Shown: positions 11,674 to 30,302 of the stretch, one piece after another
How the letters are laid out: every line of letters starts with the position of its first letter
Position numbering within the stretch: position 1 is the first letter of the stretch
DNA from: a virus
Direction: 5' to 3' (one strand)
Length of the DNA stretch: 64,000 bases
Virus record (IMG/VR): IMGVR_UViG_3300022937_000009
Location: 1 to 64,000 of that record
Program-made: the position numbers and the translations under genes
Notes under the pieces: model-generated
Database searches by the model: none
What the model was told of the DNA's origin: nothing
What the model saw: the letters and a program-made list of their open reading frames with translations, nothing else

Positions 11674-12091
11674 CCCAGAAGACGCATTTGATTATAAGAA
11701 GCCAACAGTTCAAATGTTAGGAAGATGGCAACCGTGGCACGATGGTCACACAAAATTATTTGAAAAAGCCTTGACAATTACCGGACAAGTTGTTATAATG
11801 GTACGTGAAGTTTATGGATATGAAGGAGATGCAGGAGCTGGTCGTACAACAGATCAGACCGACAATCCCTTTGGAGAAATTGCTGTTATTGATGGGATTA
11901 AGAAAGGTCTCGGAGATGCAGGATACACAGAAGGTAAAGAGTATATGATCCTTGTGGTCCCAAACATTGTCGATATTAGTTATGGACGTGGTGTTGGTTA
12001 TACTTTTACAGAACATGATTTAGGAGCGGATGTCCATAAAATCTCTGCTACTAAAATTCGTAAACAGATGAGAGAAGAAGGTAAATTATGA
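11666..12091 (+). CDS. Nucleotidyltransferase (HxGH family)
   Basis: 141 residues from the ATG at 11666, which overlaps the preceding stop and follows AAAGG; a longer frame upstream is less likely. The nucleotidyltransferase signature HDGH is at 25-28 in GRWQPWHDGHTKL, and ISATKIRKQ near the end matches the ISSTxxR motif. The family transfers nucleotides to phosphorylated or sugar substrates (cytidylyl-, adenylyl- or NMN-adenylyltransferase). The substrate is unknown. The end overlaps def by four bases (ATGA). A perfect promoter lies inside it at 11771. Confidence 0.7.
   Translation: MFNPEDAFDYKKPTVQMLGRWQPWHDGHTKLFEKALTITGQVVIMVREVYGYEGDAGAGRTTDQTDNPFGEIAVIDGIKKGLGDAGYTEGKEYMILVVPNIVDISYGRGVGYTFTEHDLGADVHKISATKIRKQMREEGKL
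11771..11799 (+). promoter_or_regulatory. Promoter inside the nucleotidyltransferase gene
   Basis: TTGACA at 11771, 17 bp, TATAAT at 11794, with extended TG. It is a perfect match although it lies in coding sequence. It would drive def and genes 47/46. Confidence 0.65.
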
Positions 12092-15492: not shown

Positions 15493-15497
15493 TGCAT

Positions 15498-15553
15498 TTT
15501 TACGTACATATAAGTGCATACAAGTTACACTTTTACGTACATAAAAGTGCATA
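15498..15553 (+). repeat. Two 23-bp repeats upstream of the polymerase promoter
   Basis: Two copies of TTTTACGTACATAWAAGTGC plus ATA, at 15498-15520 and 15531-15553, match at 22 of 23 positions and are offset by 33 bp, three helical turns. The second copy lies in an inverted repeat with arms CACTTTTA and TAAAAGTG (15528-15549). The -35 box follows seven bases later. This looks like a regulatory site for gene 43. Confidence 0.65.
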
Positions 15554-15559
15554 AAGCAG

Positions 15560-15588
15560 TTGACATTTTCGGGTACCTATGTTATAAT
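15560..15588 (+). promoter_or_regulatory. Promoter for DNA polymerase
   Basis: TTGACA at 15560, 17 bp, TATAAT at 15583, with extended TG. The preceding repeats probably modulate it. Confidence 0.85.
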
Positions 15589-15612
15589 GGTACCCTCTTA
15601 CAAAAGTAGATT

Positions 15613-18159
15613 ATGACAATGACTTCATTTTACACTTCCGTAGAACGTTACGGTAAGAATATTTTATGGCGAGGATACGAGAACGGTAAACGTTTTTCGT
15701 ATCGTGTTCCATTTAAGCCTACGCTTTATTTGCATACACCTAAGAAAGGTGGTGATTTCAAGTCGTTGATTGGTGGTAAATCTCTCCATCCTCAAAAATT
15801 TGGTGAAATGCGAGAAGCTAAAAACTTTGTTGAAGAGTACAAAGGTGTAGCAGGTTTTGAAGTATATGGTTCAACAAACTTCATTACTCAATTTATTCAA
15901 GAACATTATCCAGAAGAAGTAAGATTTAATATTTCAGATGTTAACATCGTATCTTTCGATATCGAGGTTGATATTCGTGATGGATTTGCTGATATCGAAC
16001 AAGCAAATAATGAAATTACTTCTATCGCATATAAATCATCTAAGTCTAAAAAATATTTCCTACTTGGTCGTAAAGAATACGATAAAACAAAAACAATAAC
16101 TGGTATTGATCCTGATGACATTGTTTTTGCGCAGTTCGATACTGAAGTTCAACTTCTCCAAGGATTTATTAAACTATGGACCGCTGACTATCCAGACATC
16201 GTGACTGGTTGGAACGTTGAATACTTTGATATTCAATATATCGTAACACGTATCATAAGACTACTTGGTGAAGAATCTGCAAAGAAACTTTCACCTTGGA
16301 AATTGATTGATCAAAGACGTCGTGAAGTATTTGGTAAAGTACAATCAACGTACAAAATTTCTGGTATGTCTGTAATTGACTACATGGATGCTTTTAAAAA
16401 GTTTGGTTATAAGTATGGTCCACAAGAATCATATAAACTTGACCATATTGCTCATGTTATTCTTGGTGAAAAGAAACTTGATTATTCTGAATATGGCTCA
16501 TTGACTGCATTATATGATGAAAACCCACAACTCTATCTTGACTATAACTTAAAAGATACACACCTCATTCAAAGAATGGAAGAAGAAACATCTCTTCTCG
16601 CGTTAGTTATGACAGTTGCTTATGGTGGTGGTGTAAACTTTGGTGATGCGTTTGGTACTGTAGGAATTTGGGAATCAACTATCTATCGTAGATTAATTAA
16701 AGATAAAGTTGTGCCTCCTATTAAAGACTCTCCTGGAATTCGTCAAGGTGAACTTGTAGGTGGTTATGTAAAAGATCCAAAACCTGGAATGTATCCGTGG
16801 GTTGTATCATTTGACTTAAACTCTCTATATCCACATCTTATGTTGCAATACAATATGTCACCTGAAACATATATGCCGCAGGAAAGAGAAGTAGTAACAC
16901 AAGACATGGTACTCAATGGTGATTTTAAAAATACAAATCCAAATATGTCTGTTGCTGCAAATGGTGTCTGTTTTAGAAACGATAAGGTTGGTATTATTCC
17001 AAGTATCATTGACGAATACTATAATAATCGTTCTGTAATTAAGAAACAAATGATTGCAGTCGAACAGCAATTCGAGATTGAAACAGATCCTGCTGAAAAG
17101 AAAAGACTCAAACGAGAAATGAATCAACTTCATAATTCTCAAATGTCAATCAAGATTGCTATGAACTCTCTTTATGGCGCAACAGCAAATATCTACTTCC
17201 TATATTATATTAACGAAATGGCGGAAGCAATTACTACATCTGGTCAATTAAGTATTCGATATGCTCAAAAATCTGTAAATGAATATCTCAATAAGATACT
17301 CAACACAGAAAATAAAGATTATATTGTGTATATCGATACCGATTCGATTTATGTAAACTTTAGTCCATTAGTAAAAGAAGTATTTGGTACAGTAGACATT
17401 GACCGTAAGCAAGGTGAAGAATTCTTAGACAAAGTTTGTTCTACAAAGATTGAACAAGTTATTGAAGCTGGTTATGAAAAGCTTCGATCTGACATGGGTG
17501 CTTATCGTAATGCGATGGTAATGAAACGAGAAAAGATTACTGATCGTTCTATCTTTATCGCAAAGAAAAGATACATTTTGAATACACTTAATAGTGAAGG
17601 TGTTCATTATGAAAAACCAAAAGTTTCTGTTACTGGTCTTGAATCAGTAAGATCATCGACACCACAAGTTTGTCGTGATAAGATGAAAGATATATTTGAA
17701 GTAATACTCGGTGGTGATGAAGAAGCAACACAAAAATTTATTGCTAACTTCCGTACTGAATTTAGAAAACTTCCACCTGAAGAAATTGCTAAAACTTCAG
17801 GCACAGACAATATCAATAAATATATGGACAAAGTCAACCTATACAAAAAAGGTTGCCCTATGCATGTAAGAGGATGTATTCTTTATAATCACTTCCTTGA
17901 ACAGCATAAGTTGAATAAGAAATATGAAAAGATTCAGTCAGGTGATAAGATTAAATTCTTATACCTTAAAGTACCGAATCCAATACGTGAGAATATGATT
18001 TCATTTCCTGGTGTACTTCCGAAAGAACTCGGCTTAGACAAGTATATTGATTATGATACACAATTCTCAAAAGTATTTCTCAGTCCAGTAGAGAACATTA
18101 TCGAACCTCTTGGCTGGAAATCAGAAAAAGTAAATACAATCGAGGATTTTTTCACATGA
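15613..18159 (+). CDS. 43: DNA polymerase (family B)
   Basis: 848 residues (T4 gp43 has 898). The 3'-5' exonuclease motif VSFDIEVD is near residue 115. Polymerase motif A is SFDLNSLYPHL, motif B KIAMNSLYGA, and motif C YIDTDSIYV with the two catalytic Asps. It ends in a clamp-binding-like tail (IEDFFT). It replicates the genome with clamp gp45 and loader gp44/62. ATG at 15613 is used; a second ATG two codons on is possible. The stop overlaps the next gene by four bases (ATGA). Confidence 0.97.
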   Translation: MTMTSFYTSVERYGKNILWRGYENGKRFSYRVPFKPTLYLHTPKKGGDFKSLIGGKSLHPQKFGEMREAKNFVEEYKGVAGFEVYGSTNFITQFIQEHYPEEVRFNISDVNIVSFDIEVDIRDGFADIEQANNEITSIAYKSSKSKKYFLLGRKEYDKTKTITGIDPDDIVFAQFDTEVQLLQGFIKLWTADYPDIVTGWNVEYFDIQYIVTRIIRLLGEESAKKLSPWKLIDQRRREVFGKVQSTYKISGMSVIDYMDAFKKFGYKYGPQESYKLDHIAHVILGEKKLDYSEYGSLTALYDENPQLYLDYNLKDTHLIQRMEEETSLLALVMTVAYGGGVNFGDAFGTVGIWESTIYRRLIKDKVVPPIKDSPGIRQGELVGGYVKDPKPGMYPWVVSFDLNSLYPHLMLQYNMSPETYMPQEREVVTQDMVLNGDFKNTNPNMSVAANGVCFRNDKVGIIPSIIDEYYNNRSVIKKQMIAVEQQFEIETDPAEKKRLKREMNQLHNSQMSIKIAMNSLYGATANIYFLYYINEMAEAITTSGQLSIRYAQKSVNEYLNKILNTENKDYIVYIDTDSIYVNFSPLVKEVFGTVDIDRKQGEEFLDKVCSTKIEQVIEAGYEKLRSDMGAYRNAMVMKREKITDRSIFIAKKRYILNTLNSEGVHYEKPKVSVTGLESVRSSTPQVCRDKMKDIFEVILGGDEEATQKFIANFRTEFRKLPPEEIAKTSGTDNINKYMDKVNLYKKGCPMHVRGCILYNHFLEQHKLNKKYEKIQSGDKIKFLYLKVPNPIRENMISFPGVLPKELGLDKYIDYDTQFSKVFLSPVENIIEPLGWKSEKVNTIEDFFT

Positions 18160-18929
18160 GAATAGCAATTATCGCAAATTATCGTACAGCGAGTACGTCG
18201 TTTACATTAAAAAAAGCAGAAGAATATGGTGTGCCTTATAAAGGTGAAATGTTTAGTGATCCAAGACCTTATGATCTAGGTGAAGCAAGAGCAAAATGGC
18301 AATTGATTAATTCACCTTGGAAAGAGATGGAAAAATATCAGGATCCTGTAGAAAGAGAAGCTTGTATAAGTCATGAAAGATTTATAGAACAACTTGAAGC
18401 CGGACACCCATGTTGTTTTAAATTAATTCCAATTCAAGTAAGAAATGAAGAACATGTAAGTAGAATATTGAATGCAGTAGATAGAATCTACTATCTTTAT
18501 AGAAGAGATTTTAGAGCTCAATGTGAAAGTTGGGTTGCAGTAAGACAAGATGGAAACTTTGGTGGTACTGGATTTAAAAGAAATGTAAGAGATTATCTTC
18601 GAAACATGACTGAAAATCAAAGACAAATTCATTTAGCAACAATGGGTAAAGAAGATGAACCTTATAGAATTACTGTTGATTTAGAAGATCAACCAAACTT
18701 TGGTGAGAACGAAAGAGCATTTCCATTAATTCGTGGTCTTGTTGAACGGTATGAAGAAATGGCTAAAATGTATAAAGAGTTTCCTGGTGAACTTGTTTGT
18801 ATGGAAGATTATTTTAAAGGTGAAACATATAATCCATATAATAGAGAAATCACTTGGGTAAAACCAATGCCAATGCCAGAACAATATGAAAACTTTAATG
18901 TCGAATCTTTATTTAAAGAAAAAGGTTGA
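18156..18929 (+). CDS. Sulfotransferase-like protein
   Basis: 257 residues. The N-terminal ANYRTASTSF (7-16) resembles the PAPS 5'-phosphosulfate loop of sulfotransferases, and IYYLYRRDFRAQCESW resembles the 3'-phosphate region. Sulfotransferases move sulfate from PAPS to sugars, lipids or small molecules. A possible PAPS-making kinase is encoded at 11033. It overlaps gene 43 by four bases and is followed by a new promoter, so it is probably co-expressed with the polymerase. Confidence 0.6.
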   Translation: MRIAIIANYRTASTSFTLKKAEEYGVPYKGEMFSDPRPYDLGEARAKWQLINSPWKEMEKYQDPVEREACISHERFIEQLEAGHPCCFKLIPIQVRNEEHVSRILNAVDRIYYLYRRDFRAQCESWVAVRQDGNFGGTGFKRNVRDYLRNMTENQRQIHLATMGKEDEPYRITVDLEDQPNFGENERAFPLIRGLVERYEEMAKMYKEFPGELVCMEDYFKGETYNPYNREITWVKPMPMPEQYENFNVESLFKEKG

Positions 18930-18954
18930 CATTTCAAATAAACTGTGTTATAAT
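18926..18954 (+). promoter_or_regulatory. Promoter for the Sm-like/glutaredoxin/MazG operon
   Basis: TTGACA at 18926, 17 bp, TATAAT at 18949, with TG in the extended position. It overlaps the stop codon of the sulfotransferase-like gene. Confidence 0.85.
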
Positions 18955-18984
18955 AGCTGAAATTAAATTAAAAAGGACTATCTT

Positions 18985-19272
18985 ATGAAAGATATACAAA
19001 TCGTACGACTCTCAACTGGAGAAGAAATAATCGCCAAAGTCGTTTTTGATAAAGGATTCTATACATTAAAAGATGCAATTCTTTTAGTGCCGGCCGGTGA
19101 AGGTAAAATTGGAATGGTTCCATTTGTACCTTACGCAAAAAGACAAGACTTTGTTATTGGTGAAGCACACGTAATGTTTGTTGCGGAACCTGGTGAAGAA
19201 CTTGTAAAAGAAGTTGTAAGAGCAACTTCAGGTATTGAATTAGCCACAGGCCCAGGACTTAAGTTAGTATAA
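18985..19272 (+). CDS. Sm-like (Lsm-fold) protein
   Basis: 95 residues. The N-terminal part VRLSTGEEIIAKVVFDKGFYTLKDAILLV has the Sm1-like strand order, and FVPYA begins the second part. A crystal structure of an Sm-like protein of putative cyanophage origin is known, and this resembles that family. Sm-like rings bind RNA or act as scaffolds; the phage role is unknown. AAAAAGGA is a clear ribosome site. The stop overlaps the glutaredoxin start (TAATG). Confidence 0.6.
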   Translation: MKDIQIVRLSTGEEIIAKVVFDKGFYTLKDAILLVPAGEGKIGMVPFVPYAKRQDFVIGEAHVMFVAEPGEELVKEVVRATSGIELATGPGLKLV

Positions 19273-19496
19273 TGATTACTATATACGGTAAAGAGTCTTG
19301 TGCATATTGTAATATGGCTAAAACATTATGCGAGCAAAAAGGTGTTGAGTATGAATACTTAATGCTTAATGAGGATTATACTCCACCGCAATTTTTTGAA
19401 AAATTTCCATCTGCAAGAACATTTCCGCAGATAGTAGTTGAAGATAAAAATATTGGTGGATATAACGAACTAATGGAGTATTTTGAAAATGAGTAA
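19272..19496 (+). CDS. nrdC: Glutaredoxin
   Basis: 74 residues. The redox site CAYC is at 10-13, followed by the glutaredoxin pattern TFPQI (cis-Pro) and GGYNEL. It reduces ribonucleotide reductase and other disulfides, the role of T4 NrdC. It overlaps the Sm-like stop by one base and the MazG-like start by eight bases. Confidence 0.85.
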   Translation: MITIYGKESCAYCNMAKTLCEQKGVEYEYLMLNEDYTPPQFFEKFPSARTFPQIVVEDKNIGGYNELMEYFENE

Positions 19497-19902
19497 AGAT
19501 TGGGTACAAGATATTCATGACATGCAGACTAAATATCAAACTCGTGAATGGGTTAGATATAGTATGCAAGACGATGAAAAGCTTAAAGAGTTTTTAAAGT
19601 TTAGAATTAACTTTCTCCAAGAAGAACTCGACGAAACAAGAAAAGCATTCAATAATGAAGATGCAGAAGAAATCGTAGATGGTTTAATTGATCTTTGTGT
19701 TGTTGCAATTGGTACATTAGATGCCTATGGTATTGATGCACATAAAGCTTGGGATACAGTTCTCAAAGCAAATATGGCAAAAGAAGTAGGTGTTAAAGAA
19801 ACAAGACCCAATCCACTGGGCGTACCAGATCTTGTAAAACCTGAGGGGTGGACTGCTCCAAGCCATGAAGATAATCATGGTATCTTTCAAGATTTATTTT
19901 AA
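19489..19902 (+). CDS. MazG-like nucleotide pyrophosphohydrolase
   Basis: 137 residues from the ATG at 19489, which overlaps the glutaredoxin stop; a TTG two codons upstream is less likely. The all-alpha NTP pyrophosphatase signature is visible: EELDE, then EEIVDGLIDL with metal-binding acids. The fold includes MazG, dUTPase and T4 gp56 dCTPase. As a dCMP hydroxymethylase is encoded nearby, removal of dCTP is one possible role; ppGpp or dNTP control is another. Confidence 0.7.
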   Translation: MSKDWVQDIHDMQTKYQTREWVRYSMQDDEKLKEFLKFRINFLQEELDETRKAFNNEDAEEIVDGLIDLCVVAIGTLDAYGIDAHKAWDTVLKANMAKEVGVKETRPNPLGVPDLVKPEGWTAPSHEDNHGIFQDLF

Positions 19903-19911
19903 GGATATATT

Positions 19912-20145
19912 ATGAAAACATTTAGAAAAGAATTACTTGCTGTATCAAAACAGCATTTTGAAGCACACGTTGCTAAACATAGAATTAATATTGAAGTTCT
20001 ATTAGAAAATAATGTGGGTGTCGCAGAACATCCAGACGTTATGGAAACAATTGAAAAGGAACTTGCTATTATTGCAGATTATAATGATAAAATTGCAATG
20101 ATTGATAAGTACTTTCACACACCTGAAGCACCAAGACTTCCGTAA
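19912..20145 (+). CDS. Small helical protein of unknown function
   Basis: 77 residues, mostly helical and charged (KELLAVSKQHFEAHVAKH, then METIEKELAIIADYNDKIAMIDKYF). No family recognised. It has AAGGATAT as ribosome site and follows the MazG-like gene by nine bases. Confidence 0.6.
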   Translation: MKTFRKELLAVSKQHFEAHVAKHRINIEVLLENNVGVAEHPDVMETIEKELAIIADYNDKIAMIDKYFHTPEAPRLP

Positions 20146-20164
20146 AAATAATTGAAAAAAACAG

Positions 20165-20193
20165 TTTACTTTTGCGAAAAAGTGTGGTATAAT
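20165..20193 (+). promoter_or_regulatory. Promoter for the Nmad1-dsbA-gene 42 operon
   Basis: TTTACT, 17 bp, TATAAT at 20188, with extended TGG. The -35 is weaker than elsewhere, but spacing and context are the same. Confidence 0.75.
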
Positions 20194-20216
20194 AGTGTCT
20201 ATATTATGGAGATCTT

Positions 20217-20561
20217 ATGAGTAAACAAACCAATCCCGAAGCAGTCAACGTTCTTCAAGAATGTATCGACTTACAGTTGAAAAAATCTCGCGATTATCAA
20301 AATCCAAATTCAACTGTTCAACAAGCAGATTACTACCCTCGTGGTATTGATTCAATCTATGATGTTATGAATGCAAAAATGCTCCGTATGAAATCAGTTA
20401 TGGAAGCAATGCAAAGTGATGACTATAATCCAAATTTCGAATCACTCGAAGATTCAGCAAAAGATTTAATTAATTATTCTGCATTTTTTGTTTCATATTG
20501 TCGTGGTAAAATTCCAGGACAAAATACTAATAATGATGTATACAATAGGAGAATTAAATAA
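20217..20561 (+). CDS. DUF1599 (nucleotide modification associated) protein
   Basis: 114 residues. The ending SAKDLINYSAFFVSYCRGKIPGQ and the early KKSRDYQN and DSIYDVMNAKMLRM match DUF1599, named Nmad1 for its link to DNA-base modification genes in phages. The exact reaction is not known. It heads an operon whose later genes include the dCMP hydroxymethylase, which fits that link. Confidence 0.6.
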   Translation: MSKQTNPEAVNVLQECIDLQLKKSRDYQNPNSTVQQADYYPRGIDSIYDVMNAKMLRMKSVMEAMQSDDYNPNFESLEDSAKDLINYSAFFVSYCRGKIPGQNTNNDVYNRRIK

Positions 20562-20815
20562 TGAGTAATGTGATTATTCCTTCAAGTGATGAAGATAAAA
20601 AAAGAATTAAAGGTGCTATGGAAGAAATGAGTAATTCATTTACTCGAGTAGAAGCCGAACGTTCTTTTCAAAAAGAAGCAATTAATGCTTTAGCCGAAGA
20701 TGTAGATATTCCTAAAAATATTCTACGTAAAATGGCTAGGATTTATCATAAACAAAATCTACCCGCAGTTGTAGCTGAACTTGATGATATTGAAACACTA
20801 TTGGAGACCATTTAA
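20561..20815 (+). CDS. dsbA: DsbA-like double-stranded DNA-binding protein
   Basis: 84 residues (T4 DsbA has 89). The core KEAINALAEDVDIPKNILRKMARIYHKQN aligns in pattern with T4 DsbA (helices ending in LYHKDN). T4 DsbA binds DNA near late promoters. It overlaps the preceding stop (TAATG) and the next start in the same way. Confidence 0.6.
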   Translation: MSNVIIPSSDEDKKRIKGAMEEMSNSFTRVEAERSFQKEAINALAEDVDIPKNILRKMARIYHKQNLPAVVAELDDIETLLETI

Positions 20816-21018
20816 TGCCTAGAAAAGTTTGTGTTATTGAAGTAGTAGATCCAGAAGCAAATGAAGAAGAAGTTGCAGTTGCTGGTAAATTCTGGGTCAA
20901 ATATTATGAGCTTGAAGAAGGTGAATCTATTGATGATGCTATGGAATCCTATGGAACTTTTGTAGATGATCTTGATTTTCTGCATGAGGATTTTGCAGAA
21001 TGGGCTGAGGAGTTTTAA
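20815..21018 (+). CDS. Small acidic protein
   Basis: 67 residues, strongly acidic (about a third Asp/Glu), no family recognised. It begins with hydrophobic strands (KVCVIEVV) and ends with DFLHEDFAEWAEEF. Start and stop overlap its neighbours by one base each, so it is translated in a coupled series. An acidic DNA-mimic role is possible but unsupported. Confidence 0.55.
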   Translation: MPRKVCVIEVVDPEANEEEVAVAGKFWVKYYELEEGESIDDAMESYGTFVDDLDFLHEDFAEWAEEF

Positions 21019-21692
21019 TGTTAAAAGTAAAAGATATACGTAATCAAATTGTAACCGATTATCTTCAAGGTGATTGGGTTATTGATCGTACAGGTGCTAA
21101 AACAATTGAAGTACTTGGTGCGACATTTATTGCTGACGAGGATTATGTTATTCGTAAACCAGCTTATGAATATATTGAACGTGAACTTCAATGGTATAAA
21201 AGCTGTTCATTAAACGTTAATGATATTCCTGGTAAAACTCCACAAATTTGGTTAGATGTTTCTGATGATAATGGATTCATTAATTCAAATTATGGTTGGT
21301 GTATTTTTACTAAAGAAAATGGTAATCAATACGAAAACGTTTTAAGAGAATTATCTAGGAATCATAACTCTCGTAGAGCAACAATGATCTACAATCGTCC
21401 AAGTATGCATACAGATTATAATGCTAATAATATGAATGACTTTATGTGTACTTACGCAAATACATTCTATATTCGAAATAAGCAATTAATATCTCATTAT
21501 ATTATGAGATCTAATGATGCTGTTTTTGGTTATAATAATGATTATGCATGGGCACGTTATGTTCAATCAAAACTTGCAGATGATCTAGGTGTAGAAGTTG
21601 GTGATTTAATTTGGACCGCTTCTAATTTTCATGTCTACGAAAGACATTTCAACTTTATACAAGACTACATTAATGAGCGTCAAGTGGGATAA
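21018..21692 (+). CDS. 42: dCMP hydroxymethylase (gp42-like)
   Basis: 224 residues (T4 gp42 has 246), similar to gp42 nearly end to end: TGAKTIEVLGATF, ELQWYKS, INSNYGW, RPSMHTDYN, DFMCT, MRSNDAVFG, NNDYAW and HVYERHF. The catalytic Cys is residue 144. Asp175 in NNDYAW corresponds to T4 Asp179, which selects dCMP over dUMP; the Cys-Asp spacing of 31 is the same as in T4. It makes 5-hydroxymethyl-dCMP from dCMP and methylene-tetrahydrofolate. This implies 5hmC in phage DNA or in its nucleotide pool. It overlaps the deaminase gene by 20 bases. Confidence 0.85.
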   Translation: MLKVKDIRNQIVTDYLQGDWVIDRTGAKTIEVLGATFIADEDYVIRKPAYEYIERELQWYKSCSLNVNDIPGKTPQIWLDVSDDNGFINSNYGWCIFTKENGNQYENVLRELSRNHNSRRATMIYNRPSMHTDYNANNMNDFMCTYANTFYIRNKQLISHYIMRSNDAVFGYNNDYAWARYVQSKLADDLGVEVGDLIWTASNFHVYERHFNFIQDYINERQVG

Positions 21693-22125
21693 AAGATTTC
21701 TCGGTTTAGCAAGAGAAATTTCAACATGGAGTAAAGATCCAAGTAAACAAATTGGTGCAGTTTTCGTTTCTGACGAAAGACGCATTCTTGCAACTGGATA
21801 TAATGGCTTTCCACGCAACATTGAAGATACTTTAGATCGATATGAAAATAGAGAAGAAAAGTATAAACTTGTAGTTCATGCTGAACAAAACGCAATATAT
21901 AATGCGACTTATAATGGAATTTCACTAAATAATAGTACATTATATGTTTGGGGATTACCAGTTTGTTCAGAATGTGCAAAAGGTGTTATTCAAGTTGGTA
22001 CTAAACGTATTGTAATGCCTTCAATGATAGATGTTCCAGAAAGATGGATTGAATCTTTTGATAATACAAAAGAGCTTTTTAAAGAAGCATTAGTTGATTA
22101 CGAATTTGTTGACATTTCAGTTTAA
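21673..22125 (+). CDS. cd: dCMP deaminase
   Basis: 150 residues from the ATG at 21673; a longer frame upstream runs inside gene 42. The zinc deaminase motifs are HAEQNAI and PVCSEC. It converts dCMP to dUMP for dTTP synthesis, and so balances the dCMP also used by gp42. The last codons contain the -35 of the next promoter. Confidence 0.9.
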   Translation: MSVKWDKRFLGLAREISTWSKDPSKQIGAVFVSDERRILATGYNGFPRNIEDTLDRYENREEKYKLVVHAEQNAIYNATYNGISLNNSTLYVWGLPVCSECAKGVIQVGTKRIVMPSMIDVPERWIESFDNTKELFKEALVDYEFVDISV

Positions 22126-22137
22126 TTGTGTTATAAT
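22109..22137 (+). promoter_or_regulatory. Promoter for the sugar-nucleotide gene run
   Basis: TTGACA at 22109 (inside the deaminase end), 17 bp, TATAAT at 22132, with extended TG. It lies nine bases before the epimerase start, so the leader is very short or absent. Confidence 0.8.
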
Positions 22138-22145
22138 AGAAAATT

Positions 22146-22928
22146 ATGAATAAAAAAGTTGTAGTAACAGGTGCCGATGGATATATCGGTTCAGTATTAA
22201 GAAAAAAGTTAAGTGAACGCAATGTTCGAGCGGTCTTTTACGATATTAAAGATTGGGATATTACAAAATATTCTAATCCTACTAATCCAACAGTAGATGT
22301 AGTTGTACATTTAGCAGCATTAGTTAAAGTTGGTGAAAGCGTAAAGAATCCATTTGAATATTATAATACTAACATTAATGGAACTAAAAATGTAATTGAT
22401 GCATTTCCAAATGCTAAATTTATATTTGCTTCAACAGGAGCGGCATTTGATCCAACATCACCTTATGCAAGATCAAAAGTAGTTGCAGAAGATATTGTAA
22501 AACAACTTTGTAAAGAATATACGATTTTTAGATTTTATAATGTTGGAGGTGGAGTACCTAACAATCCTGAAGGATTATATGCAGCAACTCAAAATGCAAT
22601 TCAATCAGGAACATTTACAATTTTTGGATCTGATTATGATACTAAAGATGGTACTCCAGTAAGAGATTATGTTCACGTAGAAGATCTTACAGATGCAATT
22701 GTAAAAGCAATTTATGAACCGGCTGCAATGTCAGATTATGAACCGCTTGGATCAGGACAGTCTTATACAGTTAAAGAATACATTGAAGAATTTTTAAGAG
22801 TAAACGGTCCATTATTTGAAGTAAAATATGGAGAAAGAAGAGAAGGTGATAATGCAAAATCTGAAGTACCTTTCAATTCTATGTTTATGAATCCAAAACA
22901 CACACTTGAGGATATAGTTAAATTATGA
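22146..22928 (+). CDS. NAD-dependent sugar epimerase (GalE-like)
   Basis: 260 residues. Extended SDR fold: glycine motif GADGYIGS near the start, VVHLAAL, and catalytic YxxxK (Tyr107, Lys111) in SPYARSK preceded by a TGAA segment. The C-terminal substrate domain is shorter than in GalE (about 330). It probably interconverts nucleotide sugars such as UDP-glucose and UDP-galactose. UDP-galactopyranose mutase follows two genes on. The end overlaps the next gene by four bases. Confidence 0.75.
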   Translation: MNKKVVVTGADGYIGSVLRKKLSERNVRAVFYDIKDWDITKYSNPTNPTVDVVVHLAALVKVGESVKNPFEYYNTNINGTKNVIDAFPNAKFIFASTGAAFDPTSPYARSKVVAEDIVKQLCKEYTIFRFYNVGGGVPNNPEGLYAATQNAIQSGTFTIFGSDYDTKDGTPVRDYVHVEDLTDAIVKAIYEPAAMSDYEPLGSGQSYTVKEYIEEFLRVNGPLFEVKYGERREGDNAKSEVPFNSMFMNPKHTLEDIVKL

Positions 22929-24016
22929 AAAAAATATTAATCACTGGAATGAACAAAGCTCAGTGTACTGAAGACTTTTTTCTAAGACAGCAATTACAAG
23001 TAGTACCTTCTCAATATGCAGTATTACGTTGTCTTAGAGAAATGGGATATGAAGTTGAGCAAAGAGAAGTAGCATTAGGCGAAGATATTTCACACTATGA
23101 TGAAGTAATCTTTTATATGCATAGTCCACAATCTTTCTGTCAAAATTTATATTCTGGATGTTACGCACTATCTCAAAGACCAGATGCTATTCTTGCATTT
23201 GACGATTGGCAGGTTGATCAGATTTATGGTGGTATTCAAGGATTTCGTGGAAACCTTGATGAACCAGAAGACAAAGCATTTAGACAATATCTTTTAGATC
23301 TTCAATGTACACAATATGATATTAACACTCTGAAAAAATACAAAGACAATTTTGTAGCAGCATGTGATATTATGCTAAATAAAGAAAACAGATTGTTAAT
23401 TTCTGCATTTGATCTTGGTGATTTAAGTTTGCTCAATCTCGGTTGGAATCCTGATAAAATATATCGTTTCAATCCTAACCCTTATCACTATAATCGTACT
23501 CCAGATAATGATTTTCTTTCTGGTGTATCAACACTTTTTGGTGGTGGAGTAGAAGTAAAAGATAAAAAATTAGAATGGAACTTTGCTTCGTTAGTACAAA
23601 AGAAAACTCGAAAATGGTTGAAACTTCAAAACATTCAAGAGTGGCCAATGAATATCTATGGTGCAAAGCGCGGTGAAGAAAAATCAGAAAGACTTACTGA
23701 AGACCAAATGTGTAAAGTATATGCAGAACAATGGGGATGTTTAATGCCTGGATATTTCCACTCAGGATCTGGTTGGTGGAGAGCAAGGCCTTTACAGGTT
23801 GCTGATGCAGGAAGTATTCTTATTGGTGATCCTAAAGAATTATTTGTTTACTATCAGGATGAATACTTATCTACACGTATTGCTGAAGATATTGAAGCTA
23901 TGAATGTGAAACAATTACAAGAATTTGCTCAAGGTCAACGCGATGCACTATATAAGCATCATCCTCTAGATAAAGAAAAAACAAGAAGTGAATTTGAAAT
24001 AGTATTAAACGCATGA
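22925..24016 (+). CDS. GT-B-like protein, candidate glycosyltransferase
   Basis: 363 residues; no family is certain. The N-terminus (ILITGMN, QYAVLRCLREMGYEVEQREV, HYDEVIFYMHSPQSF) looks like a Rossmann domain. The second half has GWWRARPLQVADAGSILIGDPKE followed by an all-helical end, as in GT-B enzymes where the Arg/Glu-region binds the nucleotide sugar. Its length and layout resemble T4 beta-glucosyltransferase (351 residues), which modifies 5hmC in DNA; that is an impression by eye. It is packed between the epimerase and the mutase with four-base overlaps. Confidence 0.45.
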   Translation: MKKILITGMNKAQCTEDFFLRQQLQVVPSQYAVLRCLREMGYEVEQREVALGEDISHYDEVIFYMHSPQSFCQNLYSGCYALSQRPDAILAFDDWQVDQIYGGIQGFRGNLDEPEDKAFRQYLLDLQCTQYDINTLKKYKDNFVAACDIMLNKENRLLISAFDLGDLSLLNLGWNPDKIYRFNPNPYHYNRTPDNDFLSGVSTLFGGGVEVKDKKLEWNFASLVQKKTRKWLKLQNIQEWPMNIYGAKRGEEKSERLTEDQMCKVYAEQWGCLMPGYFHSGSGWWRARPLQVADAGSILIGDPKELFVYYQDEYLSTRIAEDIEAMNVKQLQEFAQGQRDALYKHHPLDKEKTRSEFEIVLNA

Positions 24017-25020
24017 AAAATTATTTAGTAGTTGGCGCAGGATTTGCGGGTGCAGTTCACGCAAGAGAACTTGCAAATGCTGGTCATAAAGTACATGTTA
24101 TTGATTTAAGAAATCATATTGCAGGTAATGCTTATGATTATACTGATGAAAATGGTATTCGTGTACACAAATATGGTCCACACTTATTTCATACAGATAA
24201 TGAAAAAGTTGTAAACTGGTTAATGCAATATGGTGAATGGGTAGAATATAAGCATAAAGTAAAAGCCTTATTAAATGATGGACAATATGTTACTTTACCT
24301 GTAAATAAAGAAACTAAAGAAATTGTTGGTGAAGAAAATGTGCTTGATATTTTCTTTAGACCTTATACAAGAAAAATGTGGGGTAAAGAGCTCGATGAAT
24401 TAAATCCTGGTATTATTGCAAGAGTACCTATTCGTGATGATCTAAACGAATACTATTTTCCGAAAGATAAATATCAGTATATGCCAAAAGATGGCTATAC
24501 AAAACTTTTTGAAAATATTTTAAATCATGAGAATATAACAGTGCAACTTTCAACAGAGTTTAACAAGAGTATGGAAGATGAATACGATCACGTATTTAAT
24601 TCTATGCCAATTGATGTATATTATGATTATTGCTTTGGAGAATTACCTTACAGATCACTCAAGTTTCATACAATGAGTATTCCACAAACAAGAGTGCTTC
24701 CTACCGCAACAGTCAATTTTACACACGATGGACCATATACTCGAGTAACAGAATGGAAAAACATTCCAGAACATGGTAAAAACGACTTAACCACTACAGT
24801 AACTTATGAGGAACCATGTGATTATAAAGACAATAACATGGAAAGATATTATCCCATAAATGATGTAGATGGTATTAATCGTGAAAGATACAAGCAATAT
24901 CGAGATATCGAAAACTCTAAAGTCACTTTTATAGGAAGATGCGGAATGTATGTCTATTTAGATATGCACCAAGTCATAAATTCATCATTAGTATCAGTGA
25001 GTAAATTTTTAAATGATTAA
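24013..25020 (+). CDS. glf: UDP-galactopyranose mutase
   Basis: 335 residues. FAD-binding GAGFAGA near the start, HVIDLRNHIAGNAYD, KYGPHLFHT with the flavin-loop His, PYTRKMWGKELDEL, and RVPIRDD, ending FIGRCGMYVYLDMHQ: the typical Glf pattern. It converts UDP-galactopyranose to UDP-galactofuranose. With the epimerase it gives a route from UDP-glucose to UDP-Galf. It overlaps the methyltransferase gene by eight bases. Confidence 0.9.
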   Translation: MKNYLVVGAGFAGAVHARELANAGHKVHVIDLRNHIAGNAYDYTDENGIRVHKYGPHLFHTDNEKVVNWLMQYGEWVEYKHKVKALLNDGQYVTLPVNKETKEIVGEENVLDIFFRPYTRKMWGKELDELNPGIIARVPIRDDLNEYYFPKDKYQYMPKDGYTKLFENILNHENITVQLSTEFNKSMEDEYDHVFNSMPIDVYYDYCFGELPYRSLKFHTMSIPQTRVLPTATVNFTHDGPYTRVTEWKNIPEHGKNDLTTTVTYEEPCDYKDNNMERYYPINDVDGINRERYKQYRDIENSKVTFIGRCGMYVYLDMHQVINSSLVSVSKFLND

Positions 25021-26206
25021 ACACGCTTCTATCGTACCACTTATAGGTGGTGAAACTATTGGATCAGTCAATGCGTTTGGTGAAAAACCAACCTATATGA
25101 TGTCATACGAGGCCTTCAAGGACAACGATTCTCATATCCTTAATTACTATAGCGACGTTCCTTACTATGTCCTAGACAAAGGAGAGAAACCTACAGAGAG
25201 TGTTGATGTAATATCTTCTGTATGTCCTTGTGCTGGATTAAGTATGCTTTCTCAAGGATTTGGAGATCATAATCCAAATAATAAATGGCTTATCGAAACA
25301 GCAAAATATGTTCTTGGTGAAATTAAACCAAAAGTATTTTGGGGTGAAAACGCTCCAGGTTTTGCTGGTAAGATTGGTGAAAATATACGAAATGAAATGA
25401 GACGAATTGGTCTTGAACAAGGTTATACAATGACTGTTTATAGAACTAAATCGTTATTACATGGTTCATCTCAAGTAAGAGAACGTTCATTCTATTTCTT
25501 TTGGCGCGGCGAAAAAACTCCATTACTTTCATATTATAATAAAGAACGACCAGCTATTGAAGATGTTATAAGAAGCGCAGGAGGTTCTAACTTCCAAACT
25601 GAATGTATTAATCCAAAAATTCCATCTCAAGATGATTTATATTACAAATATATTTTAGAACATATTCATGGTGGAATTACTCATAAAGAATTTTCTGATA
25701 TGGTAGAACCTCAAAGTGCAAGAGGTCAATGCGTATATGCATACATAGAAAGATACGGGCATGACTATGCTCAAGTCGGCGAATGGATGGAAAAACATGG
25801 ATATGAAAAAGAAGTTGAGAAATGTAAATACAGATATGAGAAGCTCAAAGCTGGTGGAAACATTATGCGAAGAGGTACCATTGTTCCTAAAGACTTTATC
25901 GGTGCTTTTGTTGGGCATTATCCTGTCAAACTTACTCATCCTGACGATGATCGTTATATTAATTACAGAGAAGCTATGGCAATCATGGGTTTACCTTTGG
26001 ACTTCGAGTTACTCAATCCGAAAAAATCTTTCAACCATATTTGTCAAAATGTTCCCGTTCAAACGGCAACAGACATGGCGACAGAAGTAAAAAAATATTT
26101 AAATAATGAGCTACAAATGGTTGACACAGACTACGTAATGCAGTATAATAATACTCAAACCGCAGACTATATTGAAAAGCATGATACACTTGAGGCATTC
26201 CTATGA
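25013..26206 (+). CDS. DNA cytosine-5 methyltransferase
   Basis: 397 residues. C5-methyltransferase motifs: an unusual motif I (IGGETIGSVNAFG), motif IV PCAGLS with catalytic Cys73, motif VI as GENAPGF (usually ENV), and motif VIII QVRERSFYFF. The C-terminal third (AMAIMGLPLDF) matches motif IX/X. It would methylate C5 of cytosine in a specific sequence; its target domain is not readable. It overlaps dexA by four bases and contains a promoter at 26121. Confidence 0.8.
   Translation: MIKHASIVPLIGGETIGSVNAFGEKPTYMMSYEAFKDNDSHILNYYSDVPYYVLDKGEKPTESVDVISSVCPCAGLSMLSQGFGDHNPNNKWLIETAKYVLGEIKPKVFWGENAPGFAGKIGENIRNEMRRIGLEQGYTMTVYRTKSLLHGSSQVRERSFYFFWRGEKTPLLSYYNKERPAIEDVIRSAGGSNFQTECINPKIPSQDDLYYKYILEHIHGGITHKEFSDMVEPQSARGQCVYAYIERYGHDYAQVGEWMEKHGYEKEVEKCKYRYEKLKAGGNIMRRGTIVPKDFIGAFVGHYPVKLTHPDDDRYINYREAMAIMGLPLDFELLNPKKSFNHICQNVPVQTATDMATEVKKYLNNELQMVDTDYVMQYNNTQTADYIEKHDTLEAFL
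26121..26149 (+). promoter_or_regulatory. Promoter inside the cytosine methyltransferase gene
   Basis: TTGACA at 26121, 17 bp, TATAAT at 26144. A perfect match in coding sequence, about 55 bases before dexA. Confidence 0.6.
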
Positions 26207-26805
26207 AACATTTAATATTTGATTTTGAAACTATGGGCACTGAACCTATGGATTGTGCTGTAGTTGATGTTTCTGCTTTCGTATTTGATTTTGATAGATT
26301 TGAAAAGCGACCTTATACTGTTAAAGATATTAATGCAGTTCGAAGATGGAAACTTTCAGTAAAAGATCAAGTAGAAAATTATGGTTATAAAGTAGAAAAT
26401 TCTGTTATTGAATTTTGGCAATCACAAGATAAAGAAGTACGTGATAGAGTTAAACCTTTAAAAACTGATTTAACTGTAAAAGAATTTGTAGATGACTTTC
26501 ATAATTTTATTATCGATTCAAATGTTAAATATTGGTGGACAAGATCAAATGCTTTTGATCCAGTCATTATGACACGTCTTTTTGATTCTCAAGGAAAAAA
26601 ACAACATTTCTATGAATATTGTAAATACTATCTCGTGCGTGACACCCGCACGTGGATTGACGCAAAATTAAATCTTCCAGAAAGAAATGATTTCGTATTA
26701 CCAGAATGGGAAGAAGCATTTAAAAAGCATGATAGTTCATGGGATATTCTTATCGATACTCTCAGATTACAACTATTACACAGAACAGAATTTGATTTAG
26801 ATTAA
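26203..26805 (+). CDS. dexA: Exonuclease A (DexA-like)
   Basis: 200 residues (T4 DexA has 227). DEDDh exonuclease: DFETMG at the start, NAFDPVIM in the middle, HDSSWDI near the end as the Hxxx(x)D motif. T4 DexA is a 3'-5' exonuclease of modest importance. The stop is nine bases before the next gene. Confidence 0.85.
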   Translation: MKHLIFDFETMGTEPMDCAVVDVSAFVFDFDRFEKRPYTVKDINAVRRWKLSVKDQVENYGYKVENSVIEFWQSQDKEVRDRVKPLKTDLTVKEFVDDFHNFIIDSNVKYWWTRSNAFDPVIMTRLFDSQGKKQHFYEYCKYYLVRDTRTWIDAKLNLPERNDFVLPEWEEAFKKHDSSWDILIDTLRLQLLHRTEFDLD

Positions 26806-26814
26806 GGATATATT

Positions 26815-27675
26815 ATGGAACTTAAAATACCCGTTACTGATCTCAAAAACTATAAACTGTTTGTTGGTGCACCAATGTATGGTGGACAATGTTCAGGTTT
26901 ATTTACAAAATCAACTAACGATTTGAGTATGTTATGTACTAAATATGAAATACCAATGAGATATTATTTCTTATTTAATGAAAGTTTAGTACAAAGAGCT
27001 CGTAACTATATTGCAGATGAATTTATGAGATCTGATTGTACTCACTTATTGTTTATTGATAGTGATATTGGGTTTAATCCTAGAGATGCGTTAGCACTTT
27101 TAGGTATTCAAACTTCTGATCCAGAAAAATATGATATTGTAACTGGTCCTTATCCTAAGAAAACAATTGCTTGGGAAAAAATTGCAAAGGCTGCAGAACT
27201 TGGATTCGCAAATGAAAATCCTTTTAACCTTGAGCAATTTACTTCTGACTTTGTTTTTAATCCTGTAAAAGGAACTAAAGAATTTAAAGTAAGTGAACCT
27301 GTTGAAGTATCAGAAGCAGGAACTGGATTTATGCTTATTCCAAGAGAAGCTCTTGAAAAATTTAGAGATAATTATCCAGAACTATCATACAAACCAGACC
27401 ATGCGCGTACTGAAAACTTTGATGGATCGCGAAATATTACAGCATTCTTTGATTGTATTATTGATCCTGAAACGAATAGGTACTTATCTGAAGACTATTT
27501 CTTTTGTAAGAAATCAAGAGAAATGGGACTTTCAGTATGGATGTGTCCTTGGATGCAAATCAATCATGTTGGTACATATATCTTTAAAGGTAATATGGCA
27601 GCATTAGGACAACTTGGTGTTACTGCAACAGCCAATGCTTCTTCTAATAAGAAAACATATACAAAAGGCAAATAA
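26815..27675 (+). CDS. GT-A-like glycosyltransferase
   Basis: 286 residues. FVGAPMYGG starts the fold, HLLFIDSDIGF carries the DxD metal/nucleotide-sugar motif, and SEAGTGFMLIPREAL and SEDYFFC match family-2 type enzymes. It probably uses a UDP-sugar. With the preceding epimerase and mutase it could glycosylate DNA, a virion protein or a host surface polymer. The ribosome site is AAGGATAT, as in the 77-residue gene at 19912. Confidence 0.7.
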   Translation: MELKIPVTDLKNYKLFVGAPMYGGQCSGLFTKSTNDLSMLCTKYEIPMRYYFLFNESLVQRARNYIADEFMRSDCTHLLFIDSDIGFNPRDALALLGIQTSDPEKYDIVTGPYPKKTIAWEKIAKAAELGFANENPFNLEQFTSDFVFNPVKGTKEFKVSEPVEVSEAGTGFMLIPREALEKFRDNYPELSYKPDHARTENFDGSRNITAFFDCIIDPETNRYLSEDYFFCKKSREMGLSVWMCPWMQINHVGTYIFKGNMAALGQLGVTATANASSNKKTYTKGK

Positions 27676-27679
27676 ACAG

Positions 27680-27708
27680 TTGACATTTAACCTCACTTGG
27701 TATATAAT
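27680..27708 (+). promoter_or_regulatory. Promoter for the clamp-clamp loader operon
   Basis: TTGACA at 27680, 17 bp, TATAAT at 27703, in the usual ACAGTTGACATTT context. Confidence 0.85.
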
Positions 27709-27741
27709 ATACCAGTATTTTAATATCGGAGAATCTATATA

Positions 27742-28398
27742 ATGAAATTTTCTAACGAAACCTTGACGGTCTTGAAAAGCTTTAGCTCTATTAACAAATC
27801 TATTTTGTTTAAAGAAGGTAATGTTTTAAAGACTATCACTCCAGAAAAGACTCTAATTGCAATTGCAGATATTCCAGATGAAATTCCATCTGATGCATGT
27901 GTATACGATCTTTCAAGATTTCTTTCAATTTTGAGTCTTTATAATGATCCCGACGTTGAATTCGAAGATAAATACTTTATTATCTCTGAAGGTAAACGTC
28001 GTACTAAGTACGTCTACGCCGATATCTCCATGATACACACTCCTCCAGAGAAGGAAATTACTCTTCCTTCCGAAGATGTTGTTGTGAATGTATCACAAGG
28101 AGATTTGTCTTCTGTATTGAAGGCAGCAGGGGTACTACAATTTTCGGAAATTGCTTTTGTAGGCGAAAGCGGCAAAGTATTTCTGAAAGCTATCGACAGT
28201 TCGAATGAAAACGCAGATGACTTTGGCGTTGAAATCGGTGAAACTGACGATACCTTCAAGTTTATTATTAAAACTGATAACTTGAAGCTCTTACCGCTAG
28301 ATTATGAGGTTACTCTTTGCGCAAAAGGTATCTCACAATTCAGGGGCAAAGGTGTCACATATTTTGTGGCAATTGATTCAAAGTCAACTTATAATTAA
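27742..28398 (+). CDS. 45: Sliding clamp gp45
   Basis: 218 residues (T4 gp45 has 228). The start MKFSNETLTVLKSFSSINKSILFKEGN and the later YDLSRFLSILSLY and HTPPEKEITLP match the clamp family. The trimeric ring holds polymerase on DNA and activates late transcription through gp55. It heads the operon 45, a 93-residue gene, 44, a zinc protein, 62, regA. Confidence 0.95.
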   Translation: MKFSNETLTVLKSFSSINKSILFKEGNVLKTITPEKTLIAIADIPDEIPSDACVYDLSRFLSILSLYNDPDVEFEDKYFIISEGKRRTKYVYADISMIHTPPEKEITLPSEDVVVNVSQGDLSSVLKAAGVLQFSEIAFVGESGKVFLKAIDSSNENADDFGVEIGETDDTFKFIIKTDNLKLLPLDYEVTLCAKGISQFRGKGVTYFVAIDSKSTYN

Positions 28399-28412
28399 AA
28401 AAGGTGATTCAT

Positions 28413-28694
28413 ATGAATGAAACAGTAAATGGTAACTTTGGCCAACCTCAAGGCCAAGAGCAGAAGGTCGTGATTAATCTCAACGATCTTAGCACCGTTC
28501 TACAATTGATTGACATTGTCTCTCAACGTGGCGGGTTCCAAGGAAATGAGTTAGCCGGTGTTGGAATGCTTAGGAATAAAATCGAAGCTTTTCTACGTCA
28601 GAATGCTCCACAGCAAGATCCTAGTGTAGGTGAAAAAGATGTGGATGTAGATGTGCCAGCTCAAGGTCCTTTGGCTGACAAGGTAGTCGATTAA
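28413..28694 (+). CDS. Conserved-position protein between genes 45 and 44
   Basis: 93 residues from the ATG at 28413, chosen because AAAGGTG lies six bases upstream; a GTG three codons earlier is within that site. The N-terminal half has VVINLNDLSTVLQLIDIVSQRGGF and a helix ending LRNKIEAFLRQ; the end is acidic and low in complexity. No function recognised. A strong hairpin follows it before gene 44. Confidence 0.65.
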   Translation: MNETVNGNFGQPQGQEQKVVINLNDLSTVLQLIDIVSQRGGFQGNELAGVGMLRNKIEAFLRQNAPQQDPSVGEKDVDVDVPAQGPLADKVVD

Positions 28695-28712
28695 TAAGAT
28701 TACCAACCTTTC

Positions 28713-28760
28713 TCGAGATAGGGGGATAGTCAATGACTTCCCCCGCCTTTCGATTTTTTT
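28713..28760 (+). terminator. Intrinsic terminator between the 93-residue gene and gene 44
   Basis: GGGGG (28721-28725) pairs with CCCCC (28740-28744), with an inner AGTC/GACT stem; weak outer pairs precede seven Ts at 28754-28760. No promoter is seen before gene 44, so partial readthrough would set the clamp to clamp-loader ratio. Confidence 0.75.
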
Positions 28761-28781
28761 ATATTATGTAACAGGTGATCT

Positions 28782-29735
28782 ATGATTGAAGCAAAAAACA
28801 ATGAAGTACTCTGGGTCGAGAAATATCGTCCTCAAAAAGTTGACGACACAATTCTTCCAGAGCAACTCAAAACAACTTTCCGCAAATTCGTATCAGACGG
28901 AAACGTTCCAAACTTATTATTAACAGGTGGACCAGGTGTAGGTAAAACTACAATCGCAAAAGCCATGCTCGAAGAACTTGGTTGTGATTATATTATTAAA
29001 AATGGTTCACTTAATGTTAACATCGATTCTATTCGATATGATATTTCTACTTTCGCTTCTGCTGTATCTCTCACAGGTACAGGTCGAAAGTATGTCATTT
29101 TTGACGAAGCAGATTATTTGAACGCAGCAAACGTTCAACCTGCTCTTCGTAATTTCATCGAAGAATATTCAGCCAATTGCGGCTTTATCTTTACATGTAA
29201 TTTTAAGAATAGAATCATTTCTCCACTTCGATCTCGTCTTTCTGAAGTGGACTTTACTATTGAACAATCTCAAAGACCTGCGCTTGCAATGCAGTTCTTT
29301 AAAAGAGTAACAGCTATTCTCGATCAAGAAAATGTTCCTTATGACAAAAGTGTCGTAGCAAAAGTAATTGAAAAACATTTTCCTGATTTTCGAAGAGTAT
29401 TAACAGAACTACAATCCTATGCAGCATCAGGAAGAATTGACGAAGGTATATTCGTTAATCTTAAACAAGAAGCACTTGACGAACTTTTTGGTTTCCTTAA
29501 AGCTAAAAACTTTACTGAAATGCGCAAATGGGTTGCAAAAAATTCAGACCAGGATATGAACGAAATGTTTCGTCGTATCTATGATATGGCTTCATCTAAA
29601 GTCGAATTCCGTACACAACCAGGTTTCATAGTTACACTTGCTGACTATATGTACAAAGCAAACTTTGTAGCAGATCAAGAAATTAATATGGTTGCATTCT
29701 TAACTGAGGTAATGATGGAATCGGAGTTTGTCTGA
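28782..29735 (+). CDS. 44: Clamp loader large subunit gp44
   Basis: 317 residues (T4 gp44 has 319). AAA+ ATPase: WVEKYRPQKVDD, Walker A GGPGVGKTT, Walker B VIFDEADYL and sensor 1 FTCNFKNRI. Four copies with gp62 open the clamp and load it on primed DNA. The stop overlaps the zinc-protein start (TGATGG). Confidence 0.95.
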   Translation: MIEAKNNEVLWVEKYRPQKVDDTILPEQLKTTFRKFVSDGNVPNLLLTGGPGVGKTTIAKAMLEELGCDYIIKNGSLNVNIDSIRYDISTFASAVSLTGTGRKYVIFDEADYLNAANVQPALRNFIEEYSANCGFIFTCNFKNRIISPLRSRLSEVDFTIEQSQRPALAMQFFKRVTAILDQENVPYDKSVVAKVIEKHFPDFRRVLTELQSYAASGRIDEGIFVNLKQEALDELFGFLKAKNFTEMRKWVAKNSDQDMNEMFRRIYDMASSKVEFRTQPGFIVTLADYMYKANFVADQEINMVAFLTEVMMESEFV

Positions 29736-29932
29736 TGGTAAGCATATTAAGTAATGGTAAAAAGTGTTTCAATTGCGCTAAACGTATGCGAGGAGGTGAA
29801 GAATATACGATTAAGCTTGACACACTTGAAGGTAGACATGAAGTGCTTATGTGCGAAGAATGCGCAAAAGACTTTAATGACATAATGATTCAATTAGAGG
29901 ACGTAATTAATGAAAGAGATAAGTCCGTTTGA
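29735..29932 (+). CDS. Small zinc-ribbon-like protein
   Basis: 65 residues. Two CxxC pairs (CFNC, CEEC) about 30 residues apart suggest one zinc site. No known T4 counterpart; it is inserted between genes 44 and 62, overlapping both (by one and 23 bases). The tight overlaps suggest a role linked to the clamp loader, which is inference. Confidence 0.65.
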   Translation: MVSILSNGKKCFNCAKRMRGGEEYTIKLDTLEGRHEVLMCEECAKDFNDIMIQLEDVINERDKSV

Positions 29933-30302
29933 TTTTATGAATGCGGCTTCTTTTAGTAAAGAAGATCTCATTCGAAATAGTGATAATCCAGAAATTACAG
30001 AAAAAACATATAACGCATATATCGTCAACAGAGGCTTCGCAAATTTCGAAGATACTATATTACATGCTAATGAAATGAATCAACGTCATGAATTATTCCT
30101 TGGTGCTCAATTCGACTATTATAGGTCTGTCTTAAGAAAAAGAAAAAGATTTTCTAAATGGCATAAAGCAGATAAAAACAAAGATCTTGATGCAATACAA
30201 GAAGTATATCAATGTAATAGAACTGTTGCGAAACAATATTTAAAGGTATTATCTAAAGAACAATTACAAACGGTACATGATCGTCTTTTCATCGGTGGCT
30301 AA
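29910..30302 (+). CDS. 62: Clamp loader small subunit gp62
   Basis: 130 residues, shorter than T4 gp62 (187) but similar in size to marine T4-like versions. Diagnostic segments are SPFDFMNAASFSKEDLIRNS, YNAYIVNRGFANFEDTI, HANEMNQRH and KKRFSKWHK-like KRKRFSKWHK. It is the non-ATPase subunit of the gp44/62 loader. Confidence 0.85.
   Translation: MKEISPFDFMNAASFSKEDLIRNSDNPEITEKTYNAYIVNRGFANFEDTILHANEMNQRHELFLGAQFDYYRSVLRKRKRFSKWHKADKNKDLDAIQEVYQCNRTVAKQYLKVLSKEQLQTVHDRLFIGG

Follow-up and report, generated by a model that had tools for sequence, protein, structure and literature searches.

The DNA analysed here, a 64,000-nucleotide stretch (the window) of the 101,436-base IMG/VR virus record IMGVR_UViG_3300022937_000009, comes from a marine-type phage and carries, between genes of DNA replication, a cluster predicted to make 5-hydroxymethylcytosine (hmC) in phage DNA and to place a sugar on it. 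The T4-type replication block of the window includes the polymerase gp43 at 15613, the sliding clamp gp45 at 27742 and the clamp loader gp44 at 28782, and from polymerase to clamp the following features were identified in this order:

19483..19902, + strand: MazG-like all-alpha NTP pyrophosphohydrolase (PF01503 2.8e-9)
20217..20561, + strand: DUF1599/Nmad1-like small protein (PF07659, E 0.022 in the window copy)
21018..21692, + strand: dCMP hydroxymethylase of the T4 gp42 type (Pfam Thymidylat_synt 2.8e-22; Cys144, Asp175)
21631..22125, + strand: dCMP deaminase (PF00383 6e-18; phrog_174 5e-41)
22109..22137, + strand: perfect sigma-70-type promoter, TTGACA-17-TATAAT, 8 bases upstream of the epimerase ATG
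22146..22928, + strand: compact UDP-glucose 4-epimerase-like enzyme (PF01370 4.6e-29; PDB GalE 1e-26)
22925..24016, + strand: GT363, 363-residue GT-B protein like T4 DNA beta-glucosyltransferase (BGT), predicted hmC-DNA glycosyltransferase (phrog_14998 1e-34; predicted structure)
24013..25020, + strand: glf, UDP-galactopyranose mutase (UGM) (PF03275 1e-54; PDB UGM 1e-73)
25013-26206, + strand: C5MT, C5-cytosine methyltransferase-like, last gene of the cassette (PF00145 5e-16)
26121..26149, + strand: perfect sigma-70-type promoter serving the next unit (exonuclease, GT-A)
26203-26805: exonuclease, between C5MT and the GT-A gene
26815..27675, + strand: GT-A-fold protein, probably outside the module (predicted structure)

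All genes named in the original prediction are intact open reading frames at the same positions. From the epimerase through GT363 and glf to C5MT, each gene shares a few bases with the next (ATGA or 8 bases), which, together with the promoters at 22109 and 26121, suggests that these four genes form one transcription unit and that the GT-A gene belongs to the following one. Perfect TTGACA-17-TATAAT sites number 11 in the window against 0.07 expected by chance, and such promoters are also present in many relatives. The epimerase, a GT-B protein, glf and a GT-A enzyme had been described as following directly after the hydroxymethylation genes; this holds for the first three, but C5MT, which had gone unlisted, and the exonuclease intervene before the GT-A gene, and the promoter at 26121 precedes the exonuclease.

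Predicted synthesis of a hydroxymethylated base

The gp42 protein matches T4 dCMP hydroxymethylase (1b49) over its full length (phmmer E 9e-67), and it keeps both the catalytic Cys144 and, at the position selecting dCMP, an Asp rather than Asn (Asp175), as originally proposed. RB69-type phages use a homologue of gp42, a 5-hydroxy-dCMP synthase (PMC13390438). In tree and pairwise identities the window protein groups with T4 gp42 (47% identity), apart from this RB69 enzyme (p048, 24%), which together with its Morganella relative forms a separate and fully supported branch. Its sequence thus points to 5-hydroxymethyl-dCMP as the product.

The accompanying nucleotide-pool genes were also largely as described. 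The dCMP deaminase lies beside gp42, and the MazG-fold gene at 19483 has homologues (58-69% identical) shortly 5' of gp42 in related contigs; this enzyme likely drains dCTP from the pool. The DUF1599 (Nmad1) assignment at 20217 is weak for the window copy, but a homologue in contig L028 passes the PF07659 cut-off (4e-8), and the gene is kept directly 5' of gp42.

The BGT-like transferase and its place in related phages

GT363 belongs to PHROG family 14998, of unknown function; no Pfam or NCBIfam family matched it, and a phmmer search against the PDB gave no match. An AlphaFold2 model built with 20 homologues as input reached a mean predicted local distance difference test score (pLDDT) of 85.7 and a predicted template modelling score of 0.85. 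Its top PDB match by Foldseek was BGT (E 2e-5), and BGT was also best in VIA-align (Z 17.4 over 305 residues, root-mean-square deviation 4.1 Å), ahead of T4 alpha-glucosyltransferase (AGT) with hydroxymethyluracil DNA (Z 15.3). The model therefore bears out the earlier GT-B assignment and indicates the fold of BGT (CAZy GT63). The fold alone is no proof of function, because glycogen synthase also scores Z 17.0. In a profile comparison with the BGT family (hhalign E 1.8e-5, probability 78%), R288 falls on BGT R269 and Q291 on E272. Invariant residues are D94, R286, R288, E259 and E305; D94, invariant in 18 divergent members, sits in an FDD motif much as the BGT base D100 sits in FTD (alignment by eye). 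GT363 is accordingly a predicted hmC-DNA glycosyltransferase. The family of BGT-like transferases has many members, of which hardly any are annotated.

Genomic context supplies the decisive evidence. IMG/VR was searched with GT363, glf and C5MT, with the best 80 matches retained, which gave about 190 distinct locus identifiers on contigs that are fragments; more than 500 related glf stretches and more than 590 C5MT stretches exist there, and no record in the phage collection was near-identical to the window. Dozens of distinct contigs show the same gene arrangement, which is thus not due to chance. Among gp42...C5MT loci of distinct DNA, a glycosyltransferase occupies the slot between the two genes in 71 of 71: GT363 with glf in 35, GT363 alone in 12, an AGT-type enzyme in 11, another GT-B ('Glycos_transf_1') in six, an AGT-like enzyme with a HAD-containing protein in four, TAGT with UDP-glucose dehydrogenase and epimerase in two, and an NTP-transferase with a GT-B-like protein in one. 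In L081, which shares 79% identity with the window in the polymerase and 71% in gp42, the slot holds a DNA alpha-glucosyltransferase (PF11440, 1.2e-72). The GT363 cassette therefore occupies a position at which close relatives have a DNA glycosyltransferase. The two TAGT slots (L101:5361-7986 and L123:4194-6804, with epimerase and UDP-glucose dehydrogenase) suggest a uronic acid on hmC in those phages, and Pseudoalteromonas phage XG4 has a similar plan of gp42, NTP-transferase, two GT-like genes and C5MT.

The glf gene, too, is linked to the transferase and to gp42. In 57 of 75 distinct glf loci, GT363 is found no more than 300 bases away, and many of the remaining loci are truncated; well-flanked glf loci contain GT363 in 28 of 30 cases and gp42 in 26 of 30. 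Conservation of glf in relatives without gene 42 had been named as evidence that would speak against hypermodification; besides the 26 loci with gp42, one has a Tet/JBP enzyme and three have neither, two of these three also being without GT363. One GT363-glf contig with wide flanks, L174, has neither gp42 nor Tet/JBP within the available stretch and carries ThyX next to the cassette; at L174:5460-9466, GT363, glf and an epimerase stand beside ThyX-like and cytidylyltransferase-like genes (annotations by eye).

The arrangement resembles that of T4, in which a gp42-type hydroxymethylase is likewise followed by a BGT-fold transferase beside the DNA polymerase, b-gt standing directly after gene 42. 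Unlike T4, the window has its own epimerase and UGM, and hence presumably a different donor, as well as an added C5MT, and the relation of GT363 to BGT is not detectable by BLAST. Phage DNA glycosylation linked to Tet/JBP (TAGT family) similarly couples base hydroxymethylation to a linked glycosyltransferase; by contrast, the gp42 of the window acts at the nucleotide level, and Tet/JBP occurs with GT363 only in phage C48C1 and L017. That hmC is made and glycosylated in the DNA of this phage is well supported and, in our judgement, very likely.

C5MT is as constant at the locus as gp42: among distinct C5MT proteins whose contigs extend 5 kb or more to the 5' side, 61 of 61 have gp42. By alignment it has the PC, ENx and QxRxR motifs of DNA C5-cytosine methyltransferases, with conserved C73, E112-N113, R156, R158 and N346, and the FxGxG S-adenosylmethionine-binding motif I is replaced by PLIGG across the whole family. 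In the carboxymethyltransferase CmoX, Arg replaces the HhaI Asn304 position (PMC12783734); the alignment shows an invariant Asn346 where this Arg would be expected, and a CmoX-type activity was rejected. We tentatively suggest, as a possibility that we hold rather doubtful, that the region from gp42 to C5MT serves as a "DNA sugar coat" locus in which relatives exchange whole galactofuranose, glucose-, uronic-acid- and NTP-sugar-type cassettes, giving one lineage different DNA glycans, and that C5MT is an obligate part of this chemistry with a novel activity toward cytosine, either hydroxymethylated or residual.

Probable identity of the sugar

The glf product matches TIGR00031 at 9e-86, slightly under the cut-off, and keeps the residues that line up with the Tyr, Trp and Arg used in catalysis by characterised UGMs; the mutase assignment thus stands, as does that of the epimerase following the dCMP deaminase. 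The latter has the TGxxGxxG NAD motif and YxxxK, with SPYxxSK kept, and GalE is its nearest family (NCBIfam galE TIGR01179, E 4.5e-43, below the curated cut-off), so that it presumably supplies UDP-galactose. Among 68 GT363 proteins of known glf state, Arg288 is invariant, and two positions in the nucleotide-sugar-binding half next to this donor-binding residue follow glf: Pro289 and Ala221 are found together in 56 of 56 glf-linked proteins, and Pro289 in 0 of 12 glf-less ones, which have Val or Ile289 with Ser221 and form one clade (99). A smaller tree with more distant members and a residue scan agree, except for DSL-LC01 (Phe289, Gly221). The substitutions would fit a change of donor upon loss of glf. 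Standard UGM residues, a GalE-like epimerase and a residue change tracking glf together make galactofuranose the most likely sugar; we consider it probable, with arabinofuranose as the main alternative.

We therefore read the whole cluster as a DNA hypermodification module giving galactofuranosyl-hmC, with a probability of about 0.7. This reading draws, by sequence or comparison, on what the genes encode, their arrangement as an operon, the BGT fold, the exchange with DNA glucosyltransferases in the slot, the linkage to hydroxymethylating enzymes and the glf-tracking residue; activity in vivo, the sugar, its linkage and its protective function are what we infer. The MazG-like enzyme, presumably, and gp42 would divert dCMP to 5-hydroxymethyl-dCMP, which would be built into phage DNA as hmC. 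The epimerase would convert host UDP-glucose to UDP-galactopyranose, and glf this to UDP-galactofuranose. GT363 would then flip out hmC and place the furanose on its hydroxyl, with Asp94 as base, and the resulting galactofuranosyl-hmC may shield the DNA from host nucleases. The original prediction of hypermodification is thus strongly supported for the module itself by the BGT fold, the slot shared with DNA alpha-glucosyltransferases and the linkage to gp42 or Tet/JBP, and its galactofuranose step remains an inference.

Several points weigh against this reading. The module is predicted from sequence, genome comparison and a structural model; the profile match of GT363 to BGT is modest (probability 78%), and BLAST matched it to no characterised glycosyltransferase at a significant level. 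The correlation between glf and residue 289 represents a single evolutionary transition. Nucleotide sugars other than UDP-galactose can also serve as UGM substrates. In one 125-kb relative, gp42 and GT363 occur with no glf and no PF01370 epimerase; glf and the epimerase are therefore accessory, with glf presumably setting the donor. Finally, C5MT has no evident role in a genome that should contain no plain cytosine.

The alternative that survives best keeps the same module and changes the sugar to another furanose, such as L-arabinofuranose made by the UGM from UDP-arabinopyranose, or to a pyranose, GT363 then not using UDP-galactofuranose. UGMs accept UDP-arabinose to some degree, and in Morganella phage Rgz1 a divergent GT363 relative (L005:5941-7008) lies inside an RB69-type arabinose cluster, beside arabinose-5-phosphate isomerase, with RB69 ORF003c absent, making it a candidate second arabinosyltransferase. 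On the other hand, the window cassette has no xylose or arabinose genes, its epimerase is nearest to GalE and its UGM active-site residues are standard, so that we regard another sugar as possible yet rather unlikely. The arabinosyl-cytosine system of RB69/Mosigvirus (PMC6024577, PMC13390438) also places phage sugar-nucleotide genes and transferases beside the DNA polymerase, but uses 5-hydroxy-dCMP synthase and arabinose. RB69 ORF003c and p050 were considered as relatives of GT363 and rejected, since they show no similarity.

The sugar genes might instead act on host surface polysaccharide or virion proteins, with gp42 serving separately. The usual role of UGM is in cell-surface galactofuranose. 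A UGM gene of Agrobacterium phage Atu_ph04 was interpreted as belonging to cell-wall functions (PMC6630229). Against a role of the sugar genes at the host surface or in the virion speak the exchange with DNA glucosyltransferases in the slot, the BGT fold modelled for GT363, the linkage to gp42 or Tet/JBP and the lack of membrane or polymer genes in the cassette; we hold such a role to be improbable. Attachment through 5-hydroxycytosine, as the homology between gp42 and the RB69-type synthase might suggest (PMC13390438), was rejected on the gp42 tree and identities and is the least credible of all.

The literature search found no paper that links UGM to hydroxymethylcytosine or deals with galactosyl-hmC, and as far as could be searched galactofuranose on DNA is unreported. 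To our knowledge this ring form of galactose is not known on DNA and would be the first furanosyl hexose there. If true, it would add a new member to the known nucleic-acid modifications, and the prediction can be tested directly in culturable members among Aeromonas phages (the Aeromonas phage 25 group). That sugar cassettes are swapped at one locus suggests that DNA glycans diversify rapidly as a defence against modification-dependent nucleases.

Distant phages and neighbouring genes

The GT363-glf pair also occurs in distant phages. As in the window, glf adjoins a GT363 homologue in Aeromonas Tulanevirus, Erwinia FBB1, C48C1 and the Actinomycetia phage DSL-LC01; these pairs are mostly annotated as hypothetical or UGM, and the records of these phages give no DNA-modification role. 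Tulanevirus and FBB1 carry gp42, and unlike in the window the Straboviridae pair lies near motA, away from gene 42. The replication set of DSL-LC01 is of the DNA polymerase I type; in addition to GT363 and glf, this phage carries MazG, dCMP deaminase and a gp42-like enzyme in which the Asp is retained. In Aeromonas phage 25, glf and GT363 are both marked absent from phage 44RR2.8t, and were therefore gained or lost together.

No PF00303 thymidylate-synthase-family gene was found in phage C48C1 (156 kb, complete) or in the available L017 sequence. A Tet_JBP dioxygenase lies directly 5' of GT363 in C48C1 (3e-17, L002:8580-9998), and in L017 (4e-12, L017:6726-8162) it lies 5' of the epimerase preceding GT363. 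It thus appears from gene content that the hydroxymethylase is exchangeable, gp42 for Tet/JBP, while GT363 and glf stay. A PF00145 gene was searched for and not found in C48C1 or L017, so the base acted on in these two may be thymine, and the product is possibly galactofuranosyl-hydroxymethyluracil, a base J-like modification.

Of the two glycosyltransferase-like genes originally placed in the module, GT363 is retained and the GT-A gene at 26815 is not. Its fold rests on a mediocre model (pLDDT 73), and its homologues adjoin the sliding clamp in Caulobacter Cr30, Sinorhizobium phiM12 and Stenotrophomonas DLP_6, T4-superfamily phages with no close gp42 homologue; clamp and clamp-loader homologues carry annotation in Cr30 and phiM12, and Cr30 and DLP_6 do carry a Tet/JBP enzyme. 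As a clamp-locus gene that is not specific to the module, it was rejected as a second hmC transferase.

An Rfam scan of 15000-30000 matched no RNA family. Directly 3' of the DNA polymerase, 18156-18929 encodes a 257-residue protein with no PHROG match, whose start resembles a P-loop sulfotransferase by eye only. At 11033-12091, two adjacent open reading frames look like a split or interrupted gene: each corresponds to a different half of one kinase family (phrog_10255), and a perfect promoter lies within the second, at 11771.

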